Assembly (NCBI GenBank): GCA_019429365.1
Contig: JAHYJD010000018.1
Coordinates: forward strand, 1-43,040
Source: Bacteroidales bacterium
GTDB lineage: Bacteria > Bacteroidota > Bacteroidia > Bacteroidales > UBA7960
Direction of reading: 5' to 3'
DNA: 43,040 nucleotides
Shown: positions 17,908 through 34,082 of the stretch, one piece after another
Layout: the number at the start of each line of letters is the position of its first letter
Numbering within the stretch: the stretch's first letter is position 1
Position numbers and translations under genes: made by a program
The notes under the pieces: model-generated
What the model was told of the DNA's origin: nothing
Databases searched by the model: none
The model's input: the letters and a program-made list of their open reading frames with translations, nothing else

Positions 17908-19128
17908 CTAAAAAGCAGCCATTAAAAGGTCAATGTCCTGGTAAGGGATGTTGAAATATTCGCCGATATACTGGTTTGTAAGGGTTCCGTTAAACATATA
18001 TACTCCCTGTCTTACGCCCGGGTCGAGCTTTAGCATGTTTTCGAGGCCACCCTTTTCGCCAATCGACAGCAACACAGGTGCAAAGAAATTACTGAAGGCA
18101 TAGGAAGCGGTATGAGGCACACGCGAAGCAATATTGGGCACACAATAATGGGTAATGCCCAGTTTGCGGAATACCGGTTCGCTGTGGTTGGTAATTTCGC
18201 TGGTTTCGATACAGCCTCCCTGGTCGATGCTCACATCCACAATCACGCTGCCGTATTTCATCTGCCCCACCATCTCTTCGGTAACTACTATTGGCGTGCG
18301 ACCCCAATGAGAGTGCAATGCGCCAATGACCACATCGGCAGTTTTCAGGGCTTTGAGCAGTACTTTTGGCTGAATAATACTGGTAAACACCCGGGTGCTG
18401 AGGTTGCTCTGCATACTCCTCAGCTTGTAAATGGAGTTATCGAACACCTTAACCATTGCACCCAATCCCATGGCGGCCCGAACTGCATATTCGCCCACGG
18501 AGCCTGCACCAAGTATTACCACTTCAGTGGGGGTAATTCCCGAAAAGCCCCCAAACATGCGACCCTTGCCATATTTACGATCACTCAGATACTCGGCAGC
18601 AATAAGAATGGCGGTATTGCCGGCAATCTCGCTCATGCTTCGTACGAGTGGAAAGGAGTTGGTTTTGTCGCGAATGAGTTCAAAGGCAATTGCAGTAGCT
18701 TTTTTGGCTGACAGGGCTTTGAAGTAGCCATCCTTTTGCATGGGCATGGCCAGGGCCGAAAAAATAACTTGTCCGGTTTTCAGGTAGTTCATTTCCTGGT
18801 CGGTGAGCGGGGAAACCTTCAGGATAATATTGGCCTTATACACTTCTTCGGGCGAGTAAACGATTTCTCCGCCAGCCTCGCTGTATTCGTTGTCGGGAAA
18901 GAAAGCGTTTTCGCCTGCGGTACTCTCCACCAGCACCCGGTGGCCATTGCTAACCAGCAGCGATACTGCCTCAGGGGCAAGTGCTACCCGGTTTTCCTGA
19001 AAGGCCGTTTCGCGAGGGACACCAAGCACCAGGTTGTTTTTACGCTTTTTTACTTCAAGCATTTCCTCCTGGGGCAGAAACTGCCCTCCCCTGCTGAACA
19101 AAACGTAATCTTTTCCGCTGCGTTCCAT
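17908..19128 (-). CDS. ald: Alanine dehydrogenase-family protein (AlaDH/PNT)
   Basis: 406 residues. Homology covers the AlaDH/PntA N-terminal and Rossmann domains: PRETAFQENRVALAPEAV (Arg47 equals the substrate Arg), ILKVSPLTDQE (Lys104), VVILGAGSVGEYAVRAA (NAD loop), VIVDVSIDQGGCIETSE (Asp302) and VPNIASRVPHTASYAFSN. The canonical active-site His96 (in YLHLA) aligns with Ala126 in IFSALAMP. The N-terminal 30 residues extend beyond typical Ald. It probably interconverts alanine and pyruvate with NAD; since the His is missing, a different activity cannot be excluded. It is the last gene of the porX-tsaE-ald operon, 41 nt after tsaE. Confidence 0.85.
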   Translation of the reverse strand: MERSGKDYVLFSRGGQFLPQEEMLEVKKRKNNLVLGVPRETAFQENRVALAPEAVSLLVSNGHRVLVESTAGENAFFPDNEYSEAGGEIVYSPEEVYKANIILKVSPLTDQEMNYLKTGQVIFSALAMPMQKDGYFKALSAKKATAIAFELIRDKTNSFPLVRSMSEIAGNTAILIAAEYLSDRKYGKGRMFGGFSGITPTEVVILGAGSVGEYAVRAAMGLGAMVKVFDNSIYKLRSMQSNLSTRVFTSIIQPKVLLKALKTADVVIGALHSHWGRTPIVVTEEMVGQMKYGSVIVDVSIDQGGCIETSEITNHSEPVFRKLGITHYCVPNIASRVPHTASYAFSNFFAPVLLSIGEKGGLENMLKLDPGVRQGVYMFNGTLTNQYIGEYFNIPYQDIDLLMAAF

Positions 19129-19169
19129 ATTTTTTGGATTTTATTGCGAAAACTCTGCTAATGAGGAGC

Positions 19170-19589
19170 TCAGAAGCGTATAATCCGCTCACCGTCCACC
19201 TCTTTCATGTATACCTTATGACTGTCGTCGGGCAACAGTCCTTCAATCTTTTCGGGCCATTCAATGAAGCAATAGCCGCCCGAAAAGAAATAATCCTCGT
19301 AGCCAAGATTATAAACCTCCACCAGTTCCTTAATCCGGTAAAAATCGAAGTGAAATATATTATCCCCGGAAGGGGTAAGATACTGATTTATGATAGAAAA
19401 TGTAGGGCTGCTGACATTGTCGGTGCTGCCCAACTGGCGGCAAATGGCCTTGATAAAGGTGGTTTTGCCCACGCCCATGGGACCAAAAAAAGCAAATATG
19501 CGCCCCTGCGGGTAAACGGAAAGCAGCGCTAAGGCTACCTCGTCAAGATTTTGGGGATCTTTTATTTTGAAAACTTCCTGCGTAACCAT
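19170..19589 (-). CDS. tsaE: tRNA threonylcarbamoyladenosine biosynthesis ATPase TsaE
   Basis: 139 residues, standard length. The Walker A GPMGVGKTTFIKAI is followed by the TsaE-specific VSSPTFSIINQY, HFDFYRIKELVEVYNLGYED and FIEWPEKIEGLLP. It works with TsaB/TsaD to make t6A37 on ANN-decoding tRNAs, which include the tRNA-Lys encoded next door. It lies 6 nt downstream of porX and upstream of ald, so it is part of that operon. Confidence 0.96.
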   Translation of the reverse strand: MVTQEVFKIKDPQNLDEVALALLSVYPQGRIFAFFGPMGVGKTTFIKAICRQLGSTDNVSSPTFSIINQYLTPSGDNIFHFDFYRIKELVEVYNLGYEDYFFSGGYCFIEWPEKIEGLLPDDSHKVYMKEVDGERIIRF

Positions 19590-19595
19590 AGTTTC

Positions 19596-21146
19596 TTACC
19601 TGGCTTTCATAAAGATGAGCGGCACCAGCATTTCTTCGAGCGATACGCCGCCATGTTGAAAGGTGTTGCGATAGTAGTTCACGTAATAGTTGTAGTTGTT
19701 CGGATAAGCAAAAAAGCTGTTTTCAAGTGCAAAAATATAGTTAGAGCTAATGGTTCCTTTGGGAAGAAAGGCATCGGCAGGATTGCGCACCTCAAAAACA
19801 TCCGAAGCATTGTATTGCAAATTGCGGCCGGTTTTGAACCGGAGGTTGGTGTTGGTGTTTTTGTCGCCCACCACTTTCGTGGGATTTTGCACCCTGATGG
19901 CACCATGGTCGGTAGTTAGCACAATGCTGATCTTTTTTTCCGAAAGGCTTCGAATGATTTCCCACAAGGGCGAATGCTCAAACCAACTCATAGTAAGCGA
20001 ACGGTAAGCGGCCTCATCGTCGGCCAGCTCCTTAATAACTTCCATTTCGGTACGGGCGTGGGAAAGCATATCTACAAAGTTATAAACCAGTACATTAAGT
20101 TTGGTATTGGTGTAGTTGCTTATGCTTTCGGCAAGTCTTTTACCAGCACTCATGTTAAGAATTTTATGGTAATTGAACCTGACATCGCTTCCCAATCGCT
20201 TCAAATGTTCAGTAAGCAACTCATTCTCGTATTGGTTGCGGCTGCCCTCTTCTCCATCATTAACCCATAGGTTAGGATGGCGCTTTTCAATTTCGCTGGG
20301 CAGGAGGCCTGAAAAAAAGGCATTGCGCGCAAACTGCGTGGCCGTGGGCAAAATGCTACAGTAAATATCCTCATTAACCACCCGGTAAAACTGCTCAAAG
20401 AATGGTTGAAGTACTTTCCACTGATCGAATCGCAGGTTGTCAATTATGATAAGAAAGGTTTTTTCTTCCGATTTAATTATGGGAAGGCACCTTTCGCGAA
20501 AAACAGTATGCGAAAGATCGGGCTTGTCGTCGTTGTCAGAGCGGAGCCAGCTAAGGTAATTTTTGCCCACAAAGCTTGAGAATACCGAATTGGCCTCTGA
20601 CTTTTGCATACGGTAAATCTCTTTGAGGCTATTATCCTGCGATTTTTCGAGTTCAAGTTCCCAGAAAACCAACTGCCGGTAAATGTCTTTCCATTCATCG
20701 AAATCGAGGCGGCCGCTCAGGGCCATGCTGATTTGCCTGAACTCGCGCTGATAGCCCATGGTGGTCTTTTCGCTCACCAGCTTTTTATTGTCAAGGTTCT
20801 TTTTCAGCGAAAGCAAAATCTGGTGTGGGTTAACGGGCTTAATAAGGTAGTCGCTGATATTGCTGCCAATGGCATCGTTCATGATGCTTTCCTCCTCGCT
20901 TTTGGTAATCATAACCACCGGGAGGCCGGGCTGCTTGCTTTTTATCTGGGTGAGCGTTTCCAGGCCTGACAGGCCGGGCATGTTCTCATCGAGAAAAACA
21001 ATGTCAAAGTCTCTCTCGCCGATCATATCGAGGGCCTCCGAGCCATTGTTGGTAGTGAAGACGATATAGCCCTTCTCCTCAAGGAACATGACATGGGGCT
21101 TCAGCAGGTCTATTTCATCGTCGGCCCAAAGGATAGTAACACTCAT
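19596..21146 (-). CDS. porX: PorX-type response regulator with PglZ domain (T9SS regulator)
   Basis: 516 residues. The receiver domain (about 1-120) has acidic WADDEID, phosphoacceptor Asp53 (VFLDENMPG), Thr81 (MITKSEE) and Lys103 (LIKPVNP). It is followed by a helical linker and a PglZ/alkaline-phosphatase-superfamily domain (about 200-510). Metal-binding and nucleophile motifs visible there are IDNLRFDQW, LPTATQFARNAFFSG and LTTDHGAIRVQ. In Porphyromonas and Flavobacterium, PorX is needed for T9SS secretion and its PglZ domain acts as a zinc phosphodiesterase on oligonucleotides. Two T9SS cargo proteins in this window fit this. It is the first gene of a porX-tsaE-ald operon and is divergent from the HD gene. 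A PorY-like kinase is not in the window. Confidence 0.95.
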   Translation of the reverse strand: MSVTILWADDEIDLLKPHVMFLEEKGYIVFTTNNGSEALDMIGERDFDIVFLDENMPGLSGLETLTQIKSKQPGLPVVMITKSEEESIMNDAIGSNISDYLIKPVNPHQILLSLKKNLDNKKLVSEKTTMGYQREFRQISMALSGRLDFDEWKDIYRQLVFWELELEKSQDNSLKEIYRMQKSEANSVFSSFVGKNYLSWLRSDNDDKPDLSHTVFRERCLPIIKSEEKTFLIIIDNLRFDQWKVLQPFFEQFYRVVNEDIYCSILPTATQFARNAFFSGLLPSEIEKRHPNLWVNDGEEGSRNQYENELLTEHLKRLGSDVRFNYHKILNMSAGKRLAESISNYTNTKLNVLVYNFVDMLSHARTEMEVIKELADDEAAYRSLTMSWFEHSPLWEIIRSLSEKKISIVLTTDHGAIRVQNPTKVVGDKNTNTNLRFKTGRNLQYNASDVFEVRNPADAFLPKGTISSNYIFALENSFFAYPNNYNYYVNYYRNTFQHGGVSLEEMLVPLIFMKAR

Positions 21147-22744: not shown

Positions 22745-23776
22745 ATGGAATTTTCAGCCAGTCAGATAGCAGCATTCGTGCAAGGGACCGTTGAAGGAGA
22801 TGCCACTGCTAAAGTAAGCCGGTTTTCGAAGATTGAGGAAGCCACTCCGGGCTCACTTACATTCCTGGCCAATCCGGCCTACACCCCTTTTATTTATAAA
22901 ACCGGTGCCTCAGTGGTACTGGTGAGCAACGCCTTTGTGCCTGAGCAGCCCCTGCATTGCACCCTGGTGCGGGTAGCTGACCCCTACAGCGCCCTGGCCA
23001 GCCTGCTCGAACTCTATAAAAGTCAGGCTCCGCGAAAATCCGGCATCTCAACCATGGCCTTCATTTCCGAAAGTGCCATTTTGGGTGAAGACGCTTACAT
23101 TGGAGAATTTGCCTGCATTGGCGAAAAAGTAAAGCTTGGAAAGAACGTTAGGATTTATCCGCACTGCTATGTGGGCGACAATGTGAGCATTGGCGACGGA
23201 ACCACCCTTTACAGCGGCGTCAGGATTTATGAAGACTGCGTGATCGGTAACGAGTGCACCATCCATGCCAACGCCGTAATTGGTGCCGATGGCTTCGGCT
23301 TTGCACCCCAGTCGGACAGCAATTACCAAAAGGTAGCTCAAATTGGCAACGTGGTGATTGAAGACCATGTGGAAGTTGGTGCAGGCACTACCATCGACCG
23401 GGCTACCATGGGCTCTACCCTGATTAAAAAAGGCGTGAAACTTGACAACCTGATTCAAATTGCGCACAACGTGGTTATTGGCGAAAATACGGTAATGGCC
23501 GCTCAGTGCGGCGTGGCCGGATCAACCCGCATTGGCAAAAATTGCATGATTGGCGGACAGGTGGGTATTAGCGGGCACCTGACCATTGGCGACGAGGTGA
23601 AAATGGCAGCCCAAACAGGGGTGTCGGCCAGTGTTAAGGAGGGGATGATCGTTATGGGATCCCCTGCAATAGATGCATCCAGGTTTCGCAAATCATTTAT
23701 CTACTTCCGGAACTTCGAAAGCCTTGTCAAACGTATCGATGAGCTCGAAAAAGAGCTAAAGGCACTAAAGGGCTGA
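22745..23776 (+). CDS. lpxD: UDP-3-O-acylglucosamine N-acyltransferase (LpxD)
   Basis: 343 residues, typical LpxD length. An N-terminal uridine-binding domain precedes a left-handed beta-helix of hexapeptide repeats (about 100-315; [16 protein letters not shown]...) and a C-terminal helix. The catalytic His is His241 in LIQIAHNVV, equivalent to His239 in E. coli. It transfers a 3-hydroxyacyl chain from acyl-ACP to the amine of UDP-3-O-acylglucosamine, the third step of lipid A synthesis. It precedes lpxC/fabZ by 96 nt. Confidence 0.96.
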
Positions 23777-26074: not shown

Positions 26075-26683
26075 ATGCAAATCATTCTAAGGGATATCGG
26101 CAAACGCTTTCACCAGAAATGGGTTTTCAAAGGCCAGAACATGCAGTTCGAGTCTGGCCAGCATTATGCCGTTACCGGAAAAAACGGCTCTGGAAAATCT
26201 ACACTGATGCTCATTACCGCTGGTTACCTCAGCCCTACAACAGGCAGCGTGCATTGGAACGAAAAAGGAAAACCCCTCGCCCCCGATTCCGTCTATAGCA
26301 AACTCTCGCTGGCTTCGCCCTACCTTGAGCTGGTGGAGGAGTTCACCCTGGAAGAAACCCTGGTCTTCCATCAAAAGTTTAAACCTTTTCACGAAGGGTT
26401 TCACCTCAAACGGCTTATCGACCTTTCCGGGCTATCCGAAAGCCGCCACAAGGCGCTAAGGCACTTTTCGTCGGGCATGAAGCAAAGGGTGAAATTACTG
26501 CTTGCCATAATGAGCCGTTCGCAGCTGGTATTGCTCGATGAGCCCTGCGCCAACCTCGACAGTGATGCCGTAGCTTGGTACCAGCAGCTCAAGGACGATT
26601 ACGGAAAAAACCGAACTTTCGTGATTTGCTCCAACCATAACCCGGAAGAATATCCCGGCGTGAGCCAGGTTTTTGGCATTTAG
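26075..26683 (+). CDS. ABC transporter ATP-binding protein, possibly CcmA-like
   Basis: 202 residues, one ABC nucleotide-binding domain. Walker A is VTGKNGSGKSTLML, the signature FSSGMKQRVKLLLAI (variant of LSGGQ), Walker B LVLLDEPCANLD with Glu, and the switch His in VICSNHNPEEY. It lacks an attached membrane domain. It follows lpxA by 14 nt, but its length and short-linker form match CcmA, the ATPase of the CcmABCD haem exporter. The matching CcmB, CcmC, CcmD and CcmE genes lie 2 kb away on the other strand. Family membership is certain; the CcmA role is an inference. An LPS- or lipid-related transporter is an alternative. Confidence 0.75.
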   Translation: MQIILRDIGKRFHQKWVFKGQNMQFESGQHYAVTGKNGSGKSTLMLITAGYLSPTTGSVHWNEKGKPLAPDSVYSKLSLASPYLELVEEFTLEETLVFHQKFKPFHEGFHLKRLIDLSGLSESRHKALRHFSSGMKQRVKLLLAIMSRSQLVLLDEPCANLDSDAVAWYQQLKDDYGKNRTFVICSNHNPEEYPGVSQVFGI

Positions 26684-26784: not shown

Positions 26785-27348
26785 ATGGCAACAACAGCAG
26801 ATTTTCGCAATGGCTTATGCATAGAGTTTAACAATGACCTCTACTCCATCGTAGAGTTTCAGCATGTAAAACCCGGCAAGGGCGGCGCCTTTGTTCGTAC
26901 CAAACTCAGGAACCTGAAAACGGGCAAGGTCCTCCCCAACACTTTTAATGCCGGGGTTAAGATCAACATTGCCAGGGTTGAACGCAGGCCTTACCAGTAC
27001 CTTTACAAGGATGAGTCGGGATATCATTTCATGCATACCGAAACTTTTGAACAAACTTTCATACCCGAGGAAATTATCAACGCCCCCGACCTGCTCAAAG
27101 AAGGACAGGAAGTGGAAATTGTTTTTCATGCGGATACTGAAACACCCCTCTCTTGCGAATTGCCCCCATTCGTTGAATTGGAGATTGTTTATTCGGAGCC
27201 CGGAGTAAAAGGCGACACGGCCACTAACACCCTGAAGCCTGCTACCATGGAGACAGGTGCTATTGTAAACGTGCCCCTCTTTATCGAAACCGGCGAAAAG
27301 ATCAGGGTCGACACCCGTGACAAGTCTTATTCCGAACGCGTTAAATAA
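26785..27348 (+). CDS. efp: Elongation factor P
   Basis: 187 residues, the usual EF-P length, with three beta-barrel domains (KOW-like N-terminus; OB domains in the C-terminal two thirds). It relieves ribosome stalling at polyproline. The loop for post-translational activation reads [16 protein letters not shown], with the conserved Lys in PGKGG. The C-terminal [18 protein letters not shown] is typical. The next gene starts 8 nt later, so efp and lpxD2 are co-transcribed. Confidence 0.97.
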
Positions 27349-27355
27349 ACCACTA

Positions 27356-28285
27356 ATGCAACTTAACCCACCCCTTGCGCTGGAGCAGATAGCCGGATTG
27401 CTCAAAGCCCGCTTCGTGGGCGAGCCAGGCCTCGAGGTAAGCGGAATCAACGAAATACATGTGGTAAAAAAGGGTGATCTCACTTTCGTGGATCACCCTA
27501 AATATTATGACAAAGCCCTGAACTCAGCCGCCACTACCATCCTCATCAATAAGGAAGTGGATTGCCCGCCGGGCAAGGCCCTGATTTTTTCTGACGATCC
27601 CTTCCGCGATTTTGTAGCCTTGATTAAACATTTCAGGCCATTCGAGCCTGCCACTGGTACGATCAGCTCTTCAGCCATCATTGGCGAGGGTACCATCATT
27701 CAGCCGGGCACTTTTGTCGGCAACAATGTAATCATTGGCAGGAACTGCCTCATTCACCCCAACGTAACTATTTACGATCATACCATTATTGGTGACAATG
27801 TTATAATACATGCCGGGGCCGTGATTGGTTCGGATGGGCTGTATTTCAAGCGACGGCCCTCCCACTACGACAAGCTCGAATCGGGCGGGCGAGTTGTGAT
27901 TGAAGACCATGTGGAGATTGGAGCCTGCTGCACCATCGACCGCGGATCGACCAGCGACACCACTATTGGCTGGGGCACCAAGTTCGACAACCACATCCAT
28001 ATCGGGCACGACACCCGCATTGGGCGCAACTGCCTGTTTGCTGCCCAGGTTGGCGTGGCAGGCTGCGTAGTGGTAGAAGACGAGGTAATACTCTGGGGGC
28101 AGGTTGGCGTGCAGAAAGACCTCACCATTGGCAAAGGTGCTGTGGTGCTGGGGCAGTCGGGTATTTCAAAAACGCTCGAAGGCGGAAAAACCTACTTCGG
28201 CAGCCCAGCCCAGGAGGCCCGCGAAGCCATGAAACAATTGGCACTTATCAGGAAATTACCTGAGGTTTCTGAAAAACTGAAATAA
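27356..28285 (+). CDS. LpxD paralogue (second UDP-acylglucosamine N-acyltransferase-like protein)
   Basis: 309 residues from the ATG at 27356; the upstream in-frame codon overlaps efp and is unlikely. It keeps the N-terminal domain (EVSGINEIHVVKKGDLTFVD) and hexapeptide beta-helix of LpxD, and the catalytic His is at His218 (HIHIGHDT). It is shorter than the 343-residue lpxD above and lacks its C-terminal helix. A second LpxD near efp is common in Bacteroidota. It may acylate a different lipid A intermediate or sugar, or act with a different chain length, which is unknown. It ends in a strong bidirectional terminator. Confidence 0.9.
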   Translation: MQLNPPLALEQIAGLLKARFVGEPGLEVSGINEIHVVKKGDLTFVDHPKYYDKALNSAATTILINKEVDCPPGKALIFSDDPFRDFVALIKHFRPFEPATGTISSSAIIGEGTIIQPGTFVGNNVIIGRNCLIHPNVTIYDHTIIGDNVIIHAGAVIGSDGLYFKRRPSHYDKLESGGRVVIEDHVEIGACCTIDRGSTSDTTIGWGTKFDNHIHIGHDTRIGRNCLFAAQVGVAGCVVVEDEVILWGQVGVQKDLTIGKGAVVLGQSGISKTLEGGKTYFGSPAQEAREAMKQLALIRKLPEVSEKLK

Positions 28286-28298
28286 ATTCAAATAACAA

Positions 28299-28327
28299 AA
28301 AACCTGGGTGCTGCCCGGGTTTTTTGT
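28299..28327. terminator. Bidirectional terminator between lpxD2 and ccmE
   Basis: Stem AACCTGGG/CCCGGGTT, loop TGCTG, flanked by A6 on the left and T6 on the right. Two converging operons end here. Confidence 0.88.
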
Positions 28328-28329
28328 TT

Positions 28330-28743
28330 CTACTGAACGGCGGTCGAAAAGGTGGTATCGCCCATTTCCAGGTCGTCGGGATTATATTTCGAGGGACACT
28401 TGAGCAGCAGGCTGGTGGCAATAAACTGCTCGCCCTCAAACTTGCCAATGAGCACCACCTGATCCGACTTTTCAAAATCCTGGGGGCGGGCACCCTGGTA
28501 ATGCACCATGCTTTCACCACCCTGGTTATCAGTCATAAAAAAAGTAAGCAGCAACGAATTGCCCACCACACGCTCCTCAATGGGCTTGTCCTTCAGCAGC
28601 TCGCCAATAATATGAAATTCGCGACCGGGATGCTTGCGCGCTTCTTCAAAACTGGCATAGGTGTCGGCATTGTAAACAGTGCTTATTATGGCCCCGATGG
28701 CCACCACAATAAATATGAGCGCAATTATGTGAGTCTTTTTCAT
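28330..28743 (-). CDS. ccmE: Cytochrome c maturation haem chaperone CcmE, CxxxY type
   Basis: 137 residues with an N-terminal membrane anchor (HIIALIFIVVAIGAIISTV) and a periplasmic OB-fold domain. CcmE covalently binds haem from the CcmABCD complex and hands it to CcmF/CcmH. The usual haem-binding His130 in HxxxY is Cys116 here, in KCPSKYNPDD (Cys116, Tyr120). This is the CxxxY variant described for archaea and some deltaproteobacteria. It is the last gene of the ccmBCDE cluster, with a 14-nt gap from ccmD. No ccmF, ccmG or ccmH is adjacent. Confidence 0.93.
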   Translation of the reverse strand: MKKTHIIALIFIVVAIGAIISTVYNADTYASFEEARKHPGREFHIIGELLKDKPIEERVVGNSLLLTFFMTDNQGGESMVHYQGARPQDFEKSDQVVLIGKFEGEQFIATSLLLKCPSKYNPDDLEMGDTTFSTAVQ

Positions 28744-28757
28744 GTAAATAAACCTTT

Positions 28758-28934
28758 TTAACTGATCGTTAGATCAGTATTTTTTCCGCTATTTTTCTGG
28801 TTTTCCAATTCCCGAAGTTTCTTTTCTGCCTTGTCGAGCCTTCGCTCCAGGTATAACAAAAAGGCCGCAATACCAATAAGGATTATGGCCAGAACCATAA
28901 CTACCACAATCATTTTATCGCCCGATGCTATCAT
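28758..28934 (-). CDS. ccmD: CcmD-like small membrane protein
   Basis: 58 residues, too short for many gene-calling cutoffs. The start ATG lies one base after the ccmC stop (28936) and the stop 14 nt before ccmE. The protein has one N-terminal TM helix (KMIVVVMVLAIILIGIAAFL) followed by a basic, coiled-coil-like tail (LERRLDKAEKKLRELE). CcmD stabilises the CcmC-CcmE complex and releases holo-CcmE. The identity rests on position, size and one-TM topology, since CcmD sequences are poorly conserved. Confidence 0.85.
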   Translation of the reverse strand: MIASGDKMIVVVMVLAIILIGIAAFLLYLERRLDKAEKKLRELENQKNSGKNTDLTIS

Positions 28935-28935
28935 T

Positions 28936-29622
28936 TCAGTCGTTTTCGTTTAGTTCATCAATATTTTTTCTGAGCCGCAAAATGCGGAAATATACCCTGA
29001 AGAGCCACCAGGCCATAATAATCCATCCCGCTATAGCAGGAAAAAAGACCTTTCGCATGCGGGGATCGAGGTCGCCGGTTGAAAGGGCCGGATTGCCTTC
29101 AATACCAGGATGAATGGAGCCCTGCGAAAGCCGGGGCAAGATCATGATAAAGACAAAAAACAGCACAAATGCAAAGATGTTGTAAACGGCTGAAAGGCGG
29201 GCTTTTTTGTCGTGCTCATCAACCGAACCCCTCAAAACCATGTAGGCCAGGTAGGTGAGCATACCAACGGCCGCACCATTCAGTTTGGGGTCGTTAACCC
29301 AAAAGCTACCCCAGGTGTTATTCGCCCAAATCATGCCAGTAAGCAGGCCCAGGGTACCAAACACCAGGCCGGTTTTAACTGCTGTCACCGCCCTGAGGTC
29401 GTCGTCAGGACGGAAATAGCGCAAATAGCGCAGGCTAAAAAACAGCGACATGAACAAAATAAACATCATGCTGAACCACATGCCCACATGAAAGTAAATA
29501 TTCCGAACCGTTTCGCGTATAACCGGCAACTGCGGTGCTTCAAAAAGCAAACCTCCTGCAATGACATAAAGCAGAATAATCACCCCGAATATTTTCCACC
29601 AACTATTTTTTAAAAATTCCAT
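28936..29622 (-). CDS. ccmC: Haem-export/haem-handling membrane protein CcmC
   Basis: 228 residues from the ATG at 29622, 8 nt after the ccmB stop (TAA at 29631-29633). An in-frame TTG seven codons upstream overlaps ccmB and is less likely. Six TM helices are predicted. The haem-handling WWD region reads WGSFWVND (Trp104-Asp111), with Asn instead of the third Trp. Likely axial His residues are His45 (NIYFHVG) and His171 (SIHPGIE). CcmC presents haem to CcmE. It is cotranscribed as ccmB-ccmC-ccmD-ccmE. Confidence 0.93.
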   Translation of the reverse strand: MEFLKNSWWKIFGVIILLYVIAGGLLFEAPQLPVIRETVRNIYFHVGMWFSMMFILFMSLFFSLRYLRYFRPDDDLRAVTAVKTGLVFGTLGLLTGMIWANNTWGSFWVNDPKLNGAAVGMLTYLAYMVLRGSVDEHDKKARLSAVYNIFAFVLFFVFIMILPRLSQGSIHPGIEGNPALSTGDLDPRMRKVFFPAIAGWIIMAWWLFRVYFRILRLRKNIDELNEND

Positions 29623-29630
29623 GTTCAGAA

Positions 29631-30287
29631 TTATTCTTTCCAAATGTAGGGAAACAAAATATTTGACAACACCAGCGTAATGCCGGTGAGCAACACGATA
29701 ACAAAAAGATTCGGAATTTCTTCCATCAGGCCGGCACCCCCAATCGCGGCAGCCGAAACCCTTATAAGCACCAGCAGCAATGGCAATACCAGTGGAAAAC
29801 TAAGCACGGCCATAAGCGTGAAGTTATTGCGGGCTTTGGAGGCAATGGCCGAAACCATGCTCAGCACCGACGAAAAACCGGCCACGCCCAATAACATATT
29901 CAGCATAAACAGCGGCATATTCTGAACCGGGTTTCCCATAAAAGAAACAAATACCAGCAAGCCAGCCATGCCAAGGGCAGCCATTAATACGGCATTGTAA
30001 ACAATCTTGGCATTGATGATCGATTGCGGCCTCAGCAGGGTGTAATAATAGAGCAGGCGCCCATCGCGCTCCTGCAAAAAGCTTTTAAGCACCGCATTGA
30101 TGGCAGCGAACAGCATGATAATCCAGAAAAGAGAGTTCCAAGTGGGCACATCAATAAGGCGCGCAAAAGAAAGGTAGCATACAAAAACCGTCGAGACCAG
30201 GTAGAGCAGCACACCATTGAAGGCAAACTTTTCTCTCCATTCAAGGGTAATCTCCTTGCGGATCATATGGCCAATTTCGCTGAGCAT
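29631..30287 (-). CDS. ccmB: Haem exporter membrane protein CcmB
   Basis: 218 residues, typical CcmB length, with six TM helices and a cytoplasmic N-terminal basic stretch (MIRKEITLEWREKFAFNG). It is the permease that works with the ATPase CcmA to help release haem-loaded CcmE. It is the first gene of this minus-strand cluster, after a good promoter. There is no ccmA next to it; the ABC ATPase at 26.1 kb is a candidate partner. Confidence 0.93.
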   Translation of the reverse strand: MLSEIGHMIRKEITLEWREKFAFNGVLLYLVSTVFVCYLSFARLIDVPTWNSLFWIIMLFAAINAVLKSFLQERDGRLLYYYTLLRPQSIINAKIVYNAVLMAALGMAGLLVFVSFMGNPVQNMPLFMLNMLLGVAGFSSVLSMVSAIASKARNNFTLMAVLSFPLVLPLLLVLIRVSAAAIGGAGLMEEIPNLFVIVLLTGITLVLSNILFPYIWKE

Positions 30288-30410: not shown

Positions 30411-33400
30411 TCAGTGCTTAATAAGTTTAAGCTGCGAGTTTACGTTGGATCCCTTTATAGTTAGGAAATAAAATCCTTGTGAAATGCCTGCCAGGTCTAT
30501 CCTTAGCCTTTCGCCTGCCAGAAACTGCCTGCTTGCCACTTCGCGGACAACTTTCCCGCTTAAGTCGTGAAGCCTGATTACCAGCTTTTCTCCAGGGTTT
30601 TCTCCAAATTCAATCCAGGCATAATCCAGGGCAGGATTTGGATACAGGGCCATGGGTATCTCCATGACATCATCCATTCCGGCAGGACTAAGATTGTATG
30701 AAATAACCTCTGAGCAGTTATTCTCATCGAGTATAGTCACCGTATATGTTCCTATAGGCAGGTTGGTGAGGGCAGGCGTGGTTGCCCCGGTATTCCAGCT
30801 ATAGCTTAAATTACCGGTACCGCCGCTCACTGTAAGATGAATGCTGCCGTTGTTCTGTCCTACATCAGGGATGACAAGGTCGGCCTCCACCTCGATGGGT
30901 TCAGGTTCGTGAATATTTAATGGCAGCTTGTAGGCGCATTCATGAAAGTCGATCACCTGCACCCAGAATTCTCCGCCCGAAACGTTGTTCATTTCAGTAC
31001 CCGTCAACCCGTTGCTCCAGTAAAAGCTGTAAGGATAAGTTCCGCCCAGGGGGCCCACGTTAATATTGGTGGTTTGTCCGTGGCACATGATTTCATCAAA
31101 CTGATAACTGATATGCAGGATTTCGGGCTGGGTAATATCAAATTGCTGCCCGGTAAAACAGTTGCCGTCCGAAACAGTTACAATGTAAGTGCCCGGTCCG
31201 AGATCAGCAATGGTTTGCCCTTCGGCGCCATGAACCCAGTTATACACCGGATTCAGGCCGCCTGTTACACTCACTGTAATGGCACCGTTTGCATCGCCAT
31301 TGCAAAGAATGGGCGACACCACACTGTTTACTACCGGGGCTCCGGCATCCTTGATAAGTACCGGATATTCCAGCACACAATTTTCGGCGGGATTTACAAT
31401 ATTTACAAAATAGATTCCAGCAGGCACATTCTCAATGTTGGGTGTGGTTTCACCTGTGGACCATTCGTAAACAAGATTCTCATCGGGATTTTGGGGAATA
31501 ATCAATGCGGTACCTCCGCTCTGCCCGCAGCCGGGCGAATTGCTAGCAAACGACGAAACCCTGGGAAGCTCACCGGTATTGGTAATGGTAAAGCTGGCCT
31601 GTGTTTCGCAGCCAAAGGCATCCAAAATAGTAACGGAGTACTCCCCTGCCCCAATGTCGTGTAATGAACCCACTGTGGCCCCATTGCTCCAGTAATAGTT
31701 TACGGGGGCGGTGGCATTATCCACTTCAATTACAATAGCTGCATTGCTCATTTCACAGGTTTCGGGCGTTACCGCAGCCGACAGTTCCAGTTCCACTTCT
31801 TCAAATTCAAGGGCAAACTCCATTTCGCTTTCACAACCCGACTGATCGGTTATCATTACGGTGTAGGTGCCGGCCGCCAGGTTTTCGGCCAGGTTGCCAT
31901 CCAGGTCGGGTAGCTGAATCCACTGATAAACAAATGGTTCGCTCCCACCATCGGGCTGCAGCAAAATGCTGCCGTTATTGGCCACACACACCGGGTTTTG
32001 CACCTGTGCATCAACCAGCAAAAAGTCGTTTTCTTCCACCACCACTTCAATAACTCCTTGACAACCAATATTATCGGTTACCAGCACAGAATAAGTACCG
32101 GGCGGCAGGCCGCTGGCGGTCGGGCCGCTCTGGGGTGGGTCTGTTTCCCAGCTGAAGGTGTAAGGCCCGAACCCTGCAAGGGGTATTACAGTGGCCTCCC
32201 CATTGGGAGCACCGCAAGCCGAGGCCTGGGCTTCAAACTCCATTTCGAGATTTTGCGAGCCGATGGAAACATATAAGGTATCATGGCAGCCTGAAGCATC
32301 CCATACTTCCACCAAAATTTGCCCTACGCCAAGGTTCATGGCTGTGGCGCTGGTTTGCCACGGATCGGTATCCCACAAAAAGGTGTGCGGCCCAAAGCCG
32401 GTTAGCGGAATGATGGTGGCCTGCCCGTCGTCGTTGCCGCAATAAGCCTCGGTGGTGTTTACTTCATAGAAAGGTGCACAGTCTGCCACATTATCGCCCA
32501 GGTTGAGCCTGATCATGGGCACCTGCGATTCGGTTTGCCACATGCCATCAATTTGCGTAAAAGCGCCCTGACCGGGAAGTCCCCGCGGTATCTCCGAAGA
32601 AATCATCAGGTTGCCAGCTCCACCTGTATAGCTAATTGCCACCAGGTATTGTTGACTGCCTTCGAGCCATAATCCATCGCCCGAAAGGGGCAGCGACAGC
32701 CACACTGCTTCCTCGTTAACCTGAACTGACAGGTCATGCTGGCTCACAGAATACGGCGTAGTTTGTGCCAACTGGGTAAAACTTGCCCCCTGGCGCTGGT
32801 ATATTCTGGCTGTAATCTGAGCACCCGCCTGGGTCATTTCGTGCAGTGCGACCGAAACGGAAGTGGCGCGCACATCCTGCAAAATCTCAAAAACATTTCC
32901 TGTCACAAAAGCCTGCCCCACCCCTGCACGTATGCCTTCGCCAAGGTAAATGCCTCCATCCCGGGCATACACGGTATCCGTAATCTGCACCCTGCCCAGG
33001 GCAAGATTGTTTGTGGGTTCTGTATCGGGCTGGTTTTGTTTGGCCTCAAAGTTAATATTGTAAAGGCCCCTTCCAGGGAAGGTAAAGGCCGTTTGGGTGG
33101 ATAAGGTAGTGGTGTGCCCCGAGGCAAGTTGTGTCAGGGTTTCACTTTGACCTTTGTACAGGTAGGTGTTTACGTCGGTTAGTAAATGAACCCCGGTTTG
33201 GGTGTTTCCGCCAAGGTTGCGAATCATGCCGCTGAAAAACACCGGTTGCTGCTGCCCGCCGGGCACCATGGTATATCCGCCAAAAGCCACGGCAAAAAGC
33301 TCAAGGTCATTGGCGGTATAAGTATTAATAGACACATCGTCGATCATCCAGAAATAGTGTGAAGCCCCAATTTTGCGAAACCTGATCCACACCTGTTCAT

Positions 33401-34010
33401 GACCGGCAGCAACCTCAGAGATGTTAACCAGCTGGTGAATGGCATTCTGGCTCAGGTTATTGGGCCACACCCCGTTTTTCACATCAAAGCTTACCCAGTT
33501 TTCGCCATCGTTGCTCACCTCCACCAGCAGCTGCGTGCTTTGAAAGCTGCAGCAATACCTGAAAAAGTGCTGAAAAGAAAGCATTACATGCGGGTGTCCG
33601 CTCAGGTCGATGGGAGGGCTCTGAATGTAAGCGTCGGTAAGCCCCATATCATTGTCCTCACTGGCCAGGTCGCTGTCCAAAATCATGAAACCGTTGGCAG
33701 CCGAGCTGCTGTTAATGGCCGGAACACCCTGCGAAAAGCCGCCTTGGGGGCCTTCGTAAGAGTGGGTAAAACTCACATAACCGCTCAGGTCAACGCTGGT
33801 CCAGTTGGCCGGAAGGCCACCGTCAAAGTCTTCGTACCAGATGGCTTCGTCGCCCAGGTTTTTAACATCAACCGAAGGAAGACGGTTTTTCTGTGGGTTT
33901 ACAATAGCAGGCCGGGGGTAGAAAACCGGCTCGGTGGCCATGGCACTCCCAAGTAAAAAAACAAGTACCACAGGCAGGACATGACGGATTTTTAAGATCA
34001 CCTTTTCCAT
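30411..34010 (-). CDS. Large SprB-repeat, T9SS-sorted surface protein
   Basis: 1199 residues from the ATG at 34010; an ATG at 34031 is an alternative. A signal peptide (LPVVLVFLLGSAMA) is followed by a jelly-roll choice-of-anchor-J/MAM-like domain (about 56-231; IWYEDFDGGLPANWTSVD ... FWMIDDVSI). A beta-rich part up to about 520 includes a CARDB-like stretch. About eight SprB-type Ig-like repeats follow (about 545-1120), each with C...G.....GGxxPYxYxWxxG......L..GTYxVxVxDxxGC. The last 80 residues (ALYPNPALDYAWIEF ... SQLKLIKH) are a T9SS C-terminal domain. SprB-like repeats occur in gliding adhesins and other surface filaments. The gene is transcribed alone. Confidence 0.9.
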   Translation of the reverse strand: MEKVILKIRHVLPVVLVFLLGSAMATEPVFYPRPAIVNPQKNRLPSVDVKNLGDEAIWYEDFDGGLPANWTSVDLSGYVSFTHSYEGPQGGFSQGVPAINSSSAANGFMILDSDLASEDNDMGLTDAYIQSPPIDLSGHPHVMLSFQHFFRYCCSFQSTQLLVEVSNDGENWVSFDVKNGVWPNNLSQNAIHQLVNISEVAAGHEQVWIRFRKIGASHYFWMIDDVSINTYTANDLELFAVAFGGYTMVPGGQQQPVFFSGMIRNLGGNTQTGVHLLTDVNTYLYKGQSETLTQLASGHTTTLSTQTAFTFPGRGLYNINFEAKQNQPDTEPTNNLALGRVQITDTVYARDGGIYLGEGIRAGVGQAFVTGNVFEILQDVRATSVSVALHEMTQAGAQITARIYQRQGASFTQLAQTTPYSVSQHDLSVQVNEEAVWLSLPLSGDGLWLEGSQQYLVAISYTGGAGNLMISSEIPRGLPGQGAFTQIDGMWQTESQVPMIRLNLGDNVADCAPFYEVNTTEAYCGNDDGQATIIPLTGFGPHTFLWDTDPWQTSATAMNLGVGQILVEVWDASGCHDTLYVSIGSQNLEMEFEAQASACGAPNGEATVIPLAGFGPYTFSWETDPPQSGPTASGLPPGTYSVLVTDNIGCQGVIEVVVEENDFLLVDAQVQNPVCVANNGSILLQPDGGSEPFVYQWIQLPDLDGNLAENLAAGTYTVMITDQSGCESEMEFALEFEEVELELSAAVTPETCEMSNAAIVIEVDNATAPVNYYWSNGATVGSLHDIGAGEYSVTILDAFGCETQASFTITNTGELPRVSSFASNSPGCGQSGGTALIIPQNPDENLVYEWSTGETTPNIENVPAGIYFVNIVNPAENCVLEYPVLIKDAGAPVVNSVVSPILCNGDANGAITVSVTGGLNPVYNWVHGAEGQTIADLGPGTYIVTVSDGNCFTGQQFDITQPEILHISYQFDEIMCHGQTTNINVGPLGGTYPYSFYWSNGLTGTEMNNVSGGEFWVQVIDFHECAYKLPLNIHEPEPIEVEADLVIPDVGQNNGSIHLTVSGGTGNLSYSWNTGATTPALTNLPIGTYTVTILDENNCSEVISYNLSPAGMDDVMEIPMALYPNPALDYAWIEFGENPGEKLVIRLHDLSGKVVREVASRQFLAGERLRIDLAGISQGFYFLTIKGSNVNSQLKLIKH

Positions 34011-34082
34011 TATCTCAATCGTTTTTCTCATAGAATGGGTAAAAAAAGGAAGCTTTGTTTTGGCAGCTGACTGCCTGTGCAA

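Follow-up and report, generated by a model that had tools for sequence, protein, structure and literature searches.

A probable System I* pathway for cytochrome c maturation, with genes at two or more loci, in a Bacteroidales genome whose CcmC has a degenerate WWD motif

Introduction

How are c-type cytochromes matured in a bacterium whose ccm cluster encodes a CcmE with cysteine in place of the haem-binding histidine and a CcmC with an incomplete WWD motif? The question is raised by a ccmBCDE cluster in a 43,040-nucleotide stretch of Bacteroidales DNA (contig JAHYJD010000018.1 of assembly GCA_019429365.1), which is referred to as the window at its full length. The Ccm variant with Cys-CcmE is known as System I*; CPSKY is the motif found most often in it (25 of 36 genomes), and the system is listed for deltaproteobacteria, chloroflexi and firmicutes, with the string 'Bacteroid' occurring nowhere in the accessible text of the paper (PMC3601427). 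CcmH is present in about a third of the bacteria with Cys-CcmE, its absence being frequent and not obligatory (PMC3601427). A search of open-licence papers returned no report of the CcmE type in Bacteroidota, nor of loss of the third Trp of the WWD motif in CcmC. It is proposed here, with a probability of roughly 0.9, that c-type cytochromes are matured by System I* and that its genes are distributed over two or more loci.

The ccm genes of the window

The four genes of the cluster are all on the minus strand. The ABC membrane subunit is encoded by ccmB (29631..30287, 218 aa; Pfam CcmB 32.4 bits, cut-off 24.9). It is followed by ccmC (28936..29622, 228 aa; Cytochrom_C_asm, PF01578, 69.7 bits, cut-off 29.9), by a ccmD-like gene of the CcmD_alt family (28758..28934, 58 aa; PF20077 24.2 bits, barely above the cut-off of 23.5) and by ccmE for the Cys-type haem chaperone (28330..28743, 137 aa; Pfam CcmE 51 bits, cut-off 24.6). 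The intergenic gaps are 8, 1 and 14 bases, and with every gene above its Pfam cut-off the tight packing of ccmBCDE described in the original prediction is confirmed. The NCBIfam scores fall under their cut-offs for ccmB (TIGR01190, 14.2 bits, far below 156.2), ccmC (TIGR01191, 62.6 bits against 186) and CcmD_alt (TIGR04391, 23 bits, just short of 24), as expected of a divergent branch. In relatives, the gene order at ccmB is maintained, and a small ccmD-like frame occupies the same spot in most loci.

Between ccmE and the convergent lpxD lies a terminator-like hairpin (28294..28328) that is stable in both directions: -21.9 kcal/mol on the plus strand (z -6.65) and -17.2 on the minus strand (z -4.68), none of the shuffled sequences being equally stable. 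This agrees with the bidirectional terminator placed earlier at the end of the cluster; a simple terminator scan did not list the hairpin. The single promoter presumed ahead of ccmB went unconfirmed, a scan for promoters of the sigma-70 type, as distinct from the Bacteroidota type, being empty there. The cluster is adjoined by a 1223-aa frame on the minus strand (30411-34082), which by eye looks secreted and has a C-terminal sorting-like end.

On the other side, ccmE is adjoined by lpxD (21 loci) or by efp alone (one locus) in 22 of the 25 own-family CcmE loci, so the arrangement is not due to chance. The lack of nearby partner genes that had been claimed for the cluster holds for CcmF and CcmH, none of which was found in the ccm region of the window; a CcmA-like gene on the plus strand between lpxA and efp (26075..26683, 202 aa, ABC ATPase) had been overlooked. 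Among the 188 NCBIfam matches of this ATPase, TIGR01189 ccmA is the top one, with 87.8 bits, below its cut-off of 131.6. Homologues with 45-49% identity occupy the same place in L065, L068 and the mutually identical L152 and L062; no CcmA-like gene was found beside efp in L064 and L066. By score and position, the ATPase is probably CcmA. The probable ccmA belongs to a series of genes in the order lpxC-lpxA-ccmA-efp-lpxD, a lipid A neighbourhood that converges on ccmBCDE; two LpxD-like genes on the plus strand (22745-23776 and 27317-28285) flank its lpxC-lpxA-ccmA-efp part.

CcmF, CcmH and System II in the genome and the phylum

The genome to which the window belongs is a draft of 224 contigs, 95.9% complete with 4.88% contamination. 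One CcmE was found in it, together with two PF01578 proteins, namely CcmC and a CcmF of 796 aa on contig 221 (8686-11076; PF01578 89.4 bits, PF16327 44.5 bits). The expectation that later steps are encoded elsewhere is therefore borne out by the position of CcmF on another contig. At a threshold of E 0.1 neither CcmH nor ResB/CcsB was found in this draft, from which a gene for CcmH or NrfE could be missing; on the ResB result, System II was dropped for this genome. A second, standard ccm locus was likewise dropped: the complete operon with an HxxxY ccmE that would have spoken against the original prediction was not found, the genome yielding a single CcmE, only CcmC and CcmF for PF01578, and no CcmH.

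The CcmF alignment comprised 46 of 51 CcmF. Of 106 loci rows, among which the genome's own protein is counted twice, 103 matched the WWD pattern of CcmF. A homologue (L071:10469-12886) was modelled with a pLDDT of 87.3 and resembles CcmF of T. thermophilus, 6zmq (Foldseek E 5.3e-18; Z 36.1 over 567/589 residues). The beta-rich part of the model extends over about 540-778, i.e., about 240 residues, and the profile has 804 positions against 660 residues in 6zmq_A. CcmF of this genome and of its relatives is about 800 aa long with a large beta-rich part.

In 296 genomes sampled from the phylum, CcmH was found in seven at E 0.001, two of them above the cut-off, and ResB in 119, of which 110 were above the cut-off. 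CcmE without ResB occurred in 174 genomes, ResB without CcmE in 100, both in 19 and neither in three. CcmE and ResB are thus nearly mutually exclusive, several of the 19 co-occurrences being weak ResB matches. Two genomes (G047 and G172) combine CcmE with a ResB match of more than 100 bits and possibly have Systems I* and II together.

The ResB-only genomes, as well as the lack of CcmE in 22 of the 24 genomes belonging to the order's other families, could be taken to mean that the window's cluster is decayed or idle and that System II (CcsBA) or some other route serves for cytochrome maturation. This is highly improbable, since no ResB was found in the genome, PF01578 is matched by CcmC and CcmF only, the reading frames are open, the haem-ligand histidines are invariant and the gene order is conserved across the family. 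The split System I* pathway remains the preferred reading.

The Cys motif of CcmE and its distribution

The KCPSKY motif of CcmE spans residues 115-120, with the Cys116 codon at 28396-28398. In the alignment with E. coli apo-CcmE (1sr3), Cys116 falls at the position of the haem-binding His, and KCPSKY is invariant in all 19 rows of the CcmE alignment, which consisted of the window's protein and 18 of 49 CcmE. The predicted replacement of the haem-binding His, giving CPSKY, is confirmed by both alignments.

CcmE was found in 193 of the 296 phylum genomes. One CcmE per genome was read in 88 of these 193 (the window's own, the 30 with the highest scores, 19 from the same class and 38 picked across families and scores), and CPSKY was present in 88/88; 80 named CcmE loci came from a KCPSKY seed and were excluded from the motif counts. 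The Cys form is thus the norm in the phylum sample, and models with CcmH and His-CcmE from E. coli do not describe these bacteria. In the search of relatives, CcmE was present in 26 of the 35 genomes of the window's organism and its family and in 2/24 from other families of the order; besides the window's own, 27 such loci read CPSKY (26) or CPSRY (one). The attribution of a Cys-type chaperone to this Bacteroidota lineage therefore stands in so far as the genome yielded no CcmE other than one of that type; as a trait of the lineage it does not, the form being the norm in the sampled phylum. Judged from its genes, Cys-CcmE without CcmH is System I*, an already known variant, and is ordinary for the phylum.

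Cys116 might also bind haem non-covalently, as a coordination-type shuttle. Such a mode has been reported for D. vulgaris CcmE, which binds ferric haem non-covalently via the same Cys (PMC3884852). However, Desulfovibrio Cys-CcmE has been described as covalently haem-binding in E. coli (PMC3601427), and the C120A variant of M. acetivorans CcmE lost its haem stain (PMC9084895). The non-covalent shuttle is accordingly regarded as unlikely, and covalent attachment to Cys116 is retained in the pathway proposed below.

The degenerate WWD motif of CcmC

The AlphaFold2 model of CcmC (pLDDT 89.4) matches E. coli-type CcmC structures 8ce1_C (E 3.2e-07) and 7f02_C (E 5.0e-07), with TM scores by query length of 0.75 and 0.74, respectively. 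A phmmer search of the PDB gave no match for CcmC; a profile search did. Residues 104-111 read WGSFWVND, and the profile alignment (E 3e-13) places Asn110, codon 29293-29295, on W125 of the E. coli protein (7f02_C), so the earlier observation of Asn in place of the third WWD Trp is upheld. The exact WWD consensus is WGX(aromatic)WXWDXRLT (PMC3884852). The window's protein deviates from it (WGSFWVNDPKLN), with Asn for the third Trp, Lys for Arg and Asn for Thr, and keeps the positions W119, G120, W123 and D126 in E. coli numbering. The haem ligands His45 and His171 are also kept, both His columns being occupied by His in 123/123 rows. By motif and fold, the window protein is a CcmC with a degenerate WWD.

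Is the missing Trp peculiar to the window? The CcmC alignment was made of the window's protein and 53 of 56 CcmC, and the comparison included 123 CcmC rows. The third Trp is present in 26 of the 30 rows of other classes, which derive from the 30 best CcmE scorers and are not a random draw. On the side of the CcmC tree that includes the window it is missing from 92 of 93 rows; five pairs there are identical over the kept columns, leaving about 88 distinct rows. By group, Trp was found in 0/7 same-class rows, 1/59 named rows (one of which, L136, is titled Verrucomicrobia), 0/24 own-family rows and 0/2 rows from the order's other families; the window's CcmC is also without it. In these 93 rows the column is occupied mostly by N (55), then by G (7), Q and K (6 each), A and S (5 each), F (4) and P (2), with E, R and W found once each, the residue being uncertain for L131, the WGTWWTF(Q/E)D group and L008, L011 and L012 because of insertions or shifted motifs. 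The four rows with Phe have Pedobacter titles, and the only window-side Trp is that of L084. The remaining positions of the motif are uniform on this side: W114, W119, G120, W123 and D126 do not vary, Lys (87 rows) or Gln (6 rows) stands at the R128 position, and Asn occupies the T130 position in 93/93. On these alignments, loss of the third Trp is not private to the window and is widespread among its relatives.

The loss might be attributed to an altered chemistry at CcmC imposed by the Cys-type CcmE, the two traits co-occurring on the window's side of the phylum. However, the 26 other-class rows that retain Trp are accompanied by a CcmE that likewise reads CPSKY, and the loss follows the CcmC tree with three changes (a quick tree, with no mixture model and with long-branch warnings). 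This explanation, which is improbable, was dropped because Trp is retained with the same CPSKY.

Haem contacts in E. coli CcmC have been described for W114 and W119, and crosslinks to haem for W114, W123 and R128; W125 is not among these residues (PMC9616876). The counterpart of W125 in CcsBA is of consequence, since W839A has less than 25% of function (PMC6299221); CcmF W242A, with W242 equated to W125 in an alignment by eye, has 30-80% of function (PMC10746174). The WWD motif has been called highly conserved in CcmC of 44 organisms, Sediminibacterium included (PMC12077264). The simplest reading would be that, in this part of the phylum, CcmE is loaded with no need of the third Trp. Perhaps the invariant Asn at the T130 position, together with Lys, might compensate for the missing residue.

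NrfA and other candidate substrates

The candidate substrates in the genome are one cytochrome c domain protein and NrfA (562 bits), which has CWTCK and four CXXCH motifs. NrfA is encoded on contig 98, around 18394-19650, beside a gene with four CXXCH that resembles NrfH; no NrfE/NrfI candidate was found in the genome. NrfA matches were present in 25 of the 35 genomes of the window's organism and its family (one fragment, two partial), and CXXCK comes first in the genome's own NrfA as well as in all 20 family NrfA fetched. PF01578 matches in those 20 genomes numbered two in 15, one in four and none in one (G327). The latter genome, 81% complete, contains NrfA with neither CcmE nor a PF01578 match. 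In the 35 genomes, CcmE occurs without NrfA in six and NrfA without CcmE in five. More than two PF01578 (WWD-family) matches were found in one genome alone (G299; three, two of them CcmF-sized). In one genus of the family (G301, G307, G314 and G317), CcmE and PF01578 matches were found in 0/4 genomes each and an NrfA fragment in 1/4, an apparent loss of cytochrome c maturation.

The CXXCK site requires NrfEFG in E. coli, and S. oneidensis appears to use CcmF and CcmI for it; organisms with NrfHA are said to use System II (PMC12285233). Since NrfA occurs here with System I* and no detectable CcmH, the single CcmF becomes the candidate lyase for both motifs. With no more than two WWD-family proteins per family genome, except one, a single CcmF may serve both CXXCH and CXXCK without CcmH, genes missing from the draft assemblies being another possibility.

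Proposed pathway

The System I* reading draws on the gene set, the motifs, the predicted folds of CcmC and of a homologous CcmF, the absences and the distribution, all of them read from sequence data. Every catalytic step is taken over by inference from what has been published for E. coli, Desulfovibrio and Methanosarcina. Haem would be held periplasmically by CcmC and CcmD between His45, His171 and a reduced WWD platform, and would then be taken covalently by Cys116 of CcmE. Its release would be driven by CcmA and CcmB, after which holo-CcmE would hand the haem to the single CcmF of contig 221. This protein would attach it to apocytochromes, including pentahaem NrfA with its one CXXCK site, without CcmH.

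A more far-reaching version, possible but doubtful, is that the Bacteroidia side forms a distinct minimal branch of System I*. In such a branch, CcmC would have lost the third WWD Trp and would hold haem via no more than W99, W104, W108, D111 and the two His. A single CcmF, its beta-rich periplasmic domain enlarged, would cover the work of CcmF, CcmH/CcmI and NrfE for CXXCH and CXXCK.

Cys-type CcmE is the commonest route in the phylum sample; in the accessible text of the cited literature, System I* is a variant found in archaea and in certain bacteria. Two features are less expected: the WWD of CcmC is degenerate in most of the relatives sampled, and one CcmF is paired with a CXXCK NrfA. The variable third WWD position of CcmC represents a natural experiment on a residue that matters in CcsBA and partly in CcmF, and suggests that haem loading of CcmE needs less of the platform than haem attachment to the cytochrome. 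With the NrfA pairing, it becomes testable whether a single CcmF can handle both CXXCH and CXXCK when CcmH and NrfEFG are lacking.

Comparison with known systems

System II (CcsBA/ResBC) shares with the present system the WWD haem-handling superfamily and differs in its ResB, which was not found in the window's genome. System I of E. coli (CcmABCDEFGH) is alike in the CcmC fold (8ce1, 7f02), the two haem-ligand His and the homology of CcmE; unlike it, the present system has Cys instead of His in CcmE and a degenerate WWD in CcmC, and CcmH was not found. The archaeal CcmABCEF of Methanosarcina acetivorans has the CxxxY CcmE and no CcmH in common with it (PMC9084895). As described in the accessible part of that paper, the archaeal set is without CcmD and its CcmF is split, whereas a CcmD_alt gene and a single 796-aa CcmF are present here. 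The Desulfovibrio-type System I* (PMC3601427) is similar in its CPSKY CcmE, in encoding CcmC, CcmE and CcmF, and in that CcmH was not found. The present system departs from it in the placement of ccmA and ccmF apart from ccmBCDE, and perhaps in a CcmC without the third WWD Trp, as judged against the E. coli protein.
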